Assembly (NCBI GenBank): GCA_008501735.1 | Contig: QQUF01000032.1 | Coordinates: 4,742-68,741, forward strand | Direction of reading: 5' to 3' | Source: Calditrichota bacterium | GTDB taxonomy: Bacteria; CLD3 | DNA length: 64,000 nt | Shown: one piece after another, positions 37,479 through 42,771 of the stretch | Layout of the letters: each line of letters starts with the position of its first letter | Position numbering within the stretch: position 1 is the first letter of the stretch | The notes under the pieces: generated by a model | The model's database searches: none | What the model saw: the letters and a program-made list of their open reading frames with translations, nothing else | What the model was told of the DNA's origin: nothing | Program-made: the position numbers and the translations under genes

Positions 37479-37955
37479 ATGAAACTCACCATTCTAATTG
37501 CACTGCTTTTGACAGTTAATTTGGCTTTGGGACAAGCCAAAGACTACAAACTTAATGGAGAAGTTAGAAAAGTCTTTCGTGAAGAAATGTCAAAAATTGA
37601 TAGCACTTTTCAAGAAATGAATCATCACCTTGTGCGAGGAAATCTGATTTCTTACAGAAATTGTGTGAGAAAAATTAAAGAAGGATTTGTTTTAAAATCT
37701 AAATTAACAATTGAACAGCACAAAGAAATTGATTCAAAACTTTCCAAACGTTACAAAAGTTATGCTTCAAAATTTGAAAGACACTTGAGAAAACTCTCTT
37801 CTGCTGCGAAAAAACGAGATTTGGAATTAATTAATTTTTATCACGGTAAAGTTCTTGAAGACTGCACAAGTTGTCATAAAAATGTAGTTTCAGAGAAGTT
37901 TCCGAATTTTAAAAGTAAAAAGAAAAGCACTTCTAAGAAAAAAGGTCAAAAATGA
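37479..37955 (+). CDS. Small periplasmic c-type cytochrome
   Basis: 158 residues. Signal peptide (about 1-19, ending 'NLALGQA'), a helical body, and one haem-binding 'CTSCH' (Cys129, Cys132, His133) near the end, then a lysine-rich tail. A C-terminal haem site after helices resembles class II (c'/c556-like) cytochromes, though identity is too low to be sure. Its stop overlaps the SelW start (ATGA), so a redox selenoprotein is made together with a haem protein. GTGGAG lies just before the ATG. Confidence 0.8.
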   Translation: MKLTILIALLLTVNLALGQAKDYKLNGEVRKVFREEMSKIDSTFQEMNHHLVRGNLISYRNCVRKIKEGFVLKSKLTIEQHKEIDSKLSKRYKSYASKFERHLRKLSSAAKKRDLELINFYHGKVLEDCTSCHKNVVSEKFPNFKSKKKSTSKKKGQK

Positions 37956-38173
37956 AAAACATCTCAATTGAATACTGTGTAGTTTGAAATTACGAACCAC
38001 GTGCGGTCAGTTTGGCAGCAGAAGTTAAAGAGAATTTTGGAGTTGAAGTGAAAATGATTCCTTCAAGCGGTGGAGTCTTTGAAGTCGTTGTTGATGGCGA
38101 TTTAATCTTCTCAAAAAAAGAACTCAAACGACACGCCGAAGAAGGCGAAATTCTTGGAATCTTAAAAAAGTAA
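37952..38173 (+). CDS. selW: SelW-family selenoprotein with in-frame TGA as selenocysteine
   Basis: 73 residues when the TGA at 37985-37987 is read as selenocysteine (U12). The N-terminal redox motif is then C9-V-V-U12 in 'IEYCVVUNYEPRA', and the rest ('SSGGVFEVVVDGDLIFSKKE') matches the SelW/SelT/SelH thioredoxin-like fold (Rdx family), whose cysteine forms read CxxC at this place. The ATG overlaps the cytochrome stop. A short hairpin follows the TGA. The frame runs cleanly to TAA at 38171-38173. A redox role, such as glutathione-linked, is inferred. The genome must also encode SelA, SelB, SelC and SelD. Confidence 0.9.
37985..38010 (+). promoter_or_regulatory. Selenocysteine codon and candidate SECIS hairpin
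   Basis: TGA is followed seven bases later by a short stem G-A-ACC / GGTC (37994-38008) around the loop ACGTGC. Bacterial SECIS elements lie at this place, but the stem is short, so the structure is only a candidate. Confidence 0.35.
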
Positions 38174-38191: not shown

Positions 38192-38227
38192 TTATGTCGA
38201 TACGCAATGCATTGCGTATCGACATAA
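38192..38227. repeat. 36-bp perfect palindrome between selW and trkA
   Basis: Arms TTATGTCGATACGCAATG and its complement meet at the centre. It lies after both convergent genes and can serve as a terminator for each. The core GATACGCAAT is another dispersed palindrome type. Confidence 0.9.
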
Positions 38228-41679: not shown

Positions 41680-42771
41680 CTATTTAAGGAAAACAGCTTT
41701 TTTAATGTCTGTGAAATCATTTGCTTTTAATTTGTAAAAATAAACCCCTGAAGAAACAGATTTTCCATTTGAATCAGTTCCATTCCAGTTCACATTGTAT
41801 TCATTTCCACCTGCATATTTTTCATTACTAACTAAAGTATTGATTAACTGACCTTTAGTATTGTAAATATCCAAAGAAACATTTGCATCATTTGTAAGTG
41901 AGAATGAAATTGTTGTAGAAGGATTGAATGGGTTTGGATAATTTTGTTTTAGTTTGTAACGTAAGTTTTTAGAACCTTCATTTATAACGCTTGCTCTTAC
42001 TAAAACACTTTCATCATAAATTGTTGTAACATTATCAAAGTCAACATCTGCTACCCAATAGTAATAATCTTTGTCAGCAGGAAAACTAATTGAATAGTTT
42101 TGTTCAGAAGCTGAATTTGAGTTTTGACTTCTGAGAGCAGGGAAGTTTTTATAACTCATAAAAACATTTTCAGTTTTAGGCATTTCATTGGTTTTGGTTC
42201 TGTAAATGTTGAAACCTGTATTGTTGTCTTCAGAAGAAGTTATCCAATTAAGGTTCACATTTCCGTCTCTGTAGTTTCCAGCAAATTCAGACATCGAAAC
42301 AGAAAGAGGAGCGTCAGCAATCAAATGAACTCTAATTTCTCCACCACCATGAGCTGATGTATGAATGTTTAGGTAAACTAAACCACCAAGCAAATGTGCT
42401 TCGTTTGCACCAGAAAAATCATCAGCTTCAGGTCCTGCTGAGCCAGAAGTTGTTCCTGCTCCTGTTGGGATTGGAGGAGAAGTTCCGACTAAAACTCCAC
42501 CATTTGCACCTTGAACTGCTGGTCCGTGGAAATGTGAGGTCGTAATTGTTCCTTCTAAGTTATTCCAAGTGGCAGACCAAGTTAATAAACCTGTTGCATC
42601 GTCATAAGAACCATTAAAAACTCCTGTTGCAGCAGAGCCTGTTCCATTGTCAGCTGAACTGATAACAAGGTTTGTAAAAGTTGTTACTGCACCGAAAGCA
42701 AATCCACTCATTGCAACAATTCCTGTTGCTGCTAAAAGTGAAGTCATTAGTTTTTTGGCTGTTTTTTTCAT
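41680..42771 (-). CDS. Secreted CHRD-domain protein with T9SS sorting domain
   Basis: 363 residues. A signal peptide (about 1-27) is followed by a CHRD domain ('TTSHFHGPAVQG', 'LNIHTSAHGGGEIRVHL') at about 28-153, a fibronectin-like segment with 'FNIYRTKTNEMP', and a T9SS sorting domain ('LKQNYPNPFNPSTTISFSL'). Nearly the same fibronectin and sorting segments occur in the DUF4331 protein at 44283. AAAGGA precedes the start. Surface or secreted; function unknown. Confidence 0.87.
   Translation of the reverse strand: MKKTAKKLMTSLLAATGIVAMSGFAFGAVTTFTNLVISSADNGTGSAATGVFNGSYDDATGLLTWSATWNNLEGTITTSHFHGPAVQGANGGVLVGTSPPIPTGAGTTSGSAGPEADDFSGANEAHLLGGLVYLNIHTSAHGGGEIRVHLIADAPLSVSMSEFAGNYRDGNVNLNWITSSEDNNTGFNIYRTKTNEMPKTENVFMSYKNFPALRSQNSNSASEQNYSISFPADKDYYYWVADVDFDNVTTIYDESVLVRASVINEGSKNLRYKLKQNYPNPFNPSTTISFSLTNDANVSLDIYNTKGQLINTLVSNEKYAGGNEYNVNWNGTDSNGKSVSSGVYFYKLKANDFTDIKKAVFLK

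Follow-up and report, generated by a model that had tools for sequence, protein, structure and literature searches.

The 64,000-nucleotide stretch analysed here (the window) almost certainly carries, at positions 37952-38173 of its forward strand, a bacterial SelW-like (Rdx) selenoprotein gene, in which an in-frame UGA would be read as selenocysteine (Sec) by means of SelB, Sec-tRNA-Sec and a downstream hairpin. A preliminary description made from the letters alone had put forward a SelW selenoprotein with a recoded TGA, and this reading is now supported by the Sec machinery of the genome, curated family cut-offs, a TGA conserved across phyla and a covarying SECIS-type hairpin. Sec insertion in the source organism is what we infer from these sequence data. 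The features referred to below are as follows.

37479-37955, plus strand: upstream overlapping gene, cytochrome c'-like, with an apparent signal peptide (open reading frame, Pfam match, sister-genus orthologue)
37952-38173, plus strand: selW-like selenoprotein gene, 73 codons with one Sec codon (translation and profile matches)
37985-37987, plus strand: UGA predicted to be read as Sec, U12 of the CxxU motif (same-codon TGA in homologous loci)
38002-38020, plus strand: bacterial SECIS hairpin (conserved pairing and covariation in 60 non-redundant homologues)
38192-38227, no strand assigned: perfect 36-nt palindromic hairpin (from sequence; -23.2 kcal/mol, z = -6)

A SelW-like protein encoded across an internal TGA

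Translation of 37952-38173 gives the protein MKNISIEYCVVUNYEPRAVSLAAEVKENFGVEVKMIPSSGGVFEVVVDGDLIFSKKELKRHAEEGEILGILKK, with one internal TGA and a TAA stop. This agrees with the preliminary description in all its particulars, namely, the 73-codon frame, its single TGA at 37985-37987, the ATGA overlap at the start, the C9-V-V-U12 motif and the pattern GGVFEVVVDG..IFSKK. The overlap is formed by the selW ATG (37952-37954) and the TGA (37953-37955) that closes the 158-aa ORF at 37479-37955.

Membership of the read-through protein in the SelW/Rdx family is indicated by three profiles, whose curated cut-offs are passed over the full domain. First, Pfam Rdx (PF10262) gave 69.8 bits (cut-off 22.6, E=2.3e-19). 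Second, the NCBIfam equivalog SelTWH_Campy gave 101.3 bits (cut-off 88, E=2.6e-29). Third, NCBIfam CXXU_selWTH (TIGR02174) gave 58.8 bits, with a cut-off of 34.2. The AlphaFold2 model of the protein (pLDDT 94.8) is consistent with this assignment, as it places the CxxU motif after strand 4-9 of a predicted thioredoxin-like fold, which is the arrangement of SelW/Rdx proteins. When the model was compared with PDB structures, the best matches all belonged to the SelW/Rdx family (TM up to 0.90), and included SelW-related proteins of Agrobacterium, Pseudomonas, Vibrio, Bordetella and Streptomyces, as well as mouse SelW, with thioredoxins ranking behind. The Rdx structures 2FA8 (Agrobacterium Atu0228), 2OJL, 2OBK and 2P0G, and that of mouse SelW (2NPB), resemble the model with TM scores of 0.72-0.90; a PDB sequence search returned the same bacterial proteins, and those of known structure share 27-38% identity with the window protein. 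Atu0228 has Cys at the site where the window protein would have Sec. Since no signal peptide is evident, the product is probably a small cytosolic CxxU oxidoreductase, for which the motif and the modelled fold would suggest a thiol/selenol or peroxide-related redox role.

Conservation of the TGA among homologues

A TGA occupies the Sec codon in 89 of 90 SelW loci, the exception (L030) having TGT, for Cys; as the loci were chosen by similarity to the query, the scarcity of Cys forms is partly a matter of ascertainment. One of the 90 is the window gene itself and another a duplicate, leaving about 88 homologous loci, which, by their record titles, span Gemmatimonadota, Planctomycetota, Desulfobulbaceae and other deltaproteobacteria, Chloroflexota, Acidobacteria, Actinomycetota, Marinimicrobia and others. 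The alignment with Cys homologues that the preliminary description had called for places the UGA opposite the Cys of both Atu0228 and L030, so that the window gene shows the mark of a selenoprotein gene, an in-frame UGA at a codon where homologues have Cys or Sec. Relative to the SelW of a sister genus (68% identity), dN/dS is about 0.06 upstream of the TGA, a segment of only 11 codons, and 0.23 downstream; by this measure, the codons flanking the TGA on both sides are under purifying selection.

These observations bear on two alternatives. A single in-frame stop is generally the commonest sign of a pseudogene, and the TGA could have arisen by error in sequencing or assembly, or be a genuine nonsense mutation in a Cys-form gene undergoing decay. 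However, a chance TGA is excluded by the same-codon TGA in independent genomes of many phyla together with the purifying selection on both its flanks, and the genome has Sec machinery (see below), which leaves this explanation with hardly any probability. Equally improbable is that translation starts downstream of the TGA, dispensing with recoding: a TTG-started ORF (38012-38173, 53 aa) does exist, and a gene caller could pick it, but the upstream ISIEYC, including the motif Cys, is kept as protein in nearly all homologues, and the 53-aa form would, on the model, have lost strand one together with the active site.

Among relatives, a selA match accompanies the TGA form in seven of eight genomes, the match in G008 being a contig-end fragment below the cut-off. 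No selA was found in G039, which has the TGA form and whose genome is 86% complete, possibly because of that incompleteness, nor in G057, the one Cys-form genome.

Selenocysteine machinery and further in-frame TGAs

The preliminary description had proposed searching the genome for selA, selB, selD and tRNA-Sec, and all four were found, selA as a profile match above the cut-off and the tRNA-Sec with anticodon TCA (UCA). The genome therefore holds the complete set, SelA, SelB, SelD and tRNA-Sec(UCA), that goes with bacterial selenoproteins. Its selD itself has an in-frame TGA (KCAGUAS), and so do genes for the formate dehydrogenase alpha subunit FdhA (CAATUHAP), a peroxiredoxin (TPGUT) and two AhpC/TSA-domain UxSC proteins (GYSUPSC and GYNUSSC). 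In these five loci (FdhA, L111; the TPGU peroxiredoxin, L115; the AhpC/TSA UxSC pair, L116 and L117; SelD, L010) the TGAs lie at known Sec-type sites. Selenoprotein genes were sampled by family, which yielded at least six candidates including selW, that is, at least five besides it. Judging from the machinery genes and from the further TGAs at redox-active positions, the source organism looks like an active user of Sec.

The same data speak to the reading of UGA as Trp or Cys, either through a reassigned code, as is known from some bacterial lineages, or through near-cognate suppression. As the preliminary description had held, the rest of the window uses TGA as a normal stop, six of the 40 non-overlapping ORFs of at least 150 aa ending in it, and Trp is served by TGG, used 207 times; a reassigned code is thus not the explanation. 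With a UCA-anticodon tRNA-Sec present and the other in-frame TGAs at Sec-type sites, we give this reading almost no credence.

A conserved SECIS hairpin downstream of the UGA

Sec would most likely be inserted as worked out for SelB in E. coli (summarised in PMC1794560): SelB, with GTP and Sec-tRNA-Sec (anticodon UCA), would bind a hairpin just 3' of the UGA and deliver Sec to it, so that the 73-aa product, of thioredoxin fold, would have selenocysteine at residue 12 as the U of its C-x-x-U redox motif. The hairpin has arms at 38002-38009 and 38013-38020, that is, +17 to +24 and +28 to +35 (first TGA base = 0), with eight positions per arm. The first arm begins 14 nt after the UGA, and the apical loop GUU (38010-38012) lies 22 nt after it. 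The window's own copy keeps seven of the eight pairs, the remaining one being a G.A mismatch (38005/38017).

Across 60 non-redundant homologues, aligned in codon register, a mean of 6.8 of the eight positions are paired, as against 4.9 +/- 0.13 in synonymous randomisations with matched third-position G+C (n=2000, none reaching the observed mean), and 1.9-4.1 when the partner arm is slid. The covariation score was 0.424, compared with 0.207 after shuffling (0/500), and both partners of a pair vary, as in GC/UG/UA and CG/UG/UA. The loop is likewise conserved, with its G kept in 59 of the 60 homologues and its U in 55. Of 37 genes with a high third-position G+C, 33 have T as the last base of codon +8, which holds this U, while T makes up 9% elsewhere in the gene, which indicates that the wobble base in the loop is under selection. 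In the selW of the sister genus (L022/L031) the first loop base is A, from an AAT codon that makes the loop AUU, instead of the near-invariant G, and the stem has compensatory changes.

Folding the 40 bases after the TGA, another check suggested beforehand, yielded no signal for the window by itself. When folded alone, the window hairpin was as stable as its shuffles (z about 0), and in the free-energy test against synonymous randomisation z averaged -0.9 for the 60 homologues and was +0.4 for the window; the Rfam scan of the window returned no match. The evidence for the SECIS element is therefore comparative: what characterises the window gene is a conserved, covarying GUU-loop hairpin downstream of its UGA, whose own copy is not unusually stable.

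Gene neighbourhood

The gene that overlaps selW by 4 nt encodes what is apparently an exported cytochrome c'-like protein, with one haem motif, C-T-S-C-H, close to its C-terminus and a match to Pfam Cytochrom_C_2 (E=2.3e-5) whose 25.8 bits fall just below the cut-off of 26.5. Given the ATGA overlap, both genes are probably co-transcribed and translationally coupled. In the sister genus, a cytochrome c'-like orthologue (48% identity) abuts selW (L031, 1501-2001 and 2001-2222). Beyond the window, the cytochrome gene adjoins selW only there; most other lineages lack this arrangement, and isolated CxxCH ORFs occur elsewhere.

In ten distant selW loci there was no general conserved neighbour that would hint at SelW function, the genes found nearby encoding a CHAT protein, acetyl-CoA hydrolase, an exonuclease, an alpha/beta hydrolase and phosphofructokinase. 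A phosphofructokinase gene is directly downstream of selW in two Gemmatimonadota contigs (L037 and L056). In the window, selW converges on a 450-aa minus-strand ORF, and the palindrome at 38192-38227 sits between them as a likely (bidirectional) terminator. Further along, 41680-42771 encodes an exported protein with a typical sorting-type C-terminal domain (NYPNPFNPSTTISFSL...), which suggests type IX secretion in the source organism.

Relation to known SelW-like selenoproteins and implications

Knowledge of bacterial SelW-like selenoproteins goes back to the mid-2000s. Among the selenoprotein families already known at the time, they were the most abundant in the Sargasso Sea set (PMC1088965); they are also among 25 bacterial selenoprotein families (PMC1794560), and have been entered as pfam10262 with the motif CxxU (PMC9312934). 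With those of the Sargasso Sea set, Geobacter sulfurreducens and Desulfotalea psychrophila (PMC1088965, PMC1794560, PMC9312934), the window gene shares the family, a CxxU motif with Sec at its second position and a SECIS element immediately downstream, and it differs from them only in its host lineage and in the overlapping upstream cytochrome c'-like gene. SelW of Campylobacter jejuni (CJnc60; PMC11955535, PMC4607533) is likewise a small Rdx selenoprotein, with a UGA decoded by tRNA-Sec, that was missed in annotation, as has been reported for SelW genes of Epsilonproteobacteria (PMC4607533). What the preliminary description called overlooked is accordingly a general problem of annotation, with an earlier record for just this family. 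The window protein passes the SelTWH_Campy cut-off; however, full-length translation past the UGA has been demonstrated in C. jejuni by ribosome profiling (Ribo-seq) and proteomics (PMC11955535), whereas for the window gene it is inferred. In view of these precedents, the window gene is not a new kind of thing, but an ordinary and well-supported member of its family, and what is locally new is confined to the overlap with the cytochrome c' gene, an arrangement that the sister genus has as well.

Functional coupling of SelW to the cytochrome c'-like protein of the overlapping gene, in this family-level lineage, seems to us unlikely. If true, it would provide the first physiological partner for a bacterial SelW, with a role, for example, in the nitric oxide response or in haem-thiol redox stress. 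The overlap is in this sense one lineage-specific lead on the function of SelW, one of the most abundant selenoprotein families in bacteria. More broadly, the present case illustrates that a true recoded gene can be spotted by reading sequence with no tools at hand, and it places a SelW selenoprotein, as one of at least six selenoprotein genes, in a lineage that has been little sampled.
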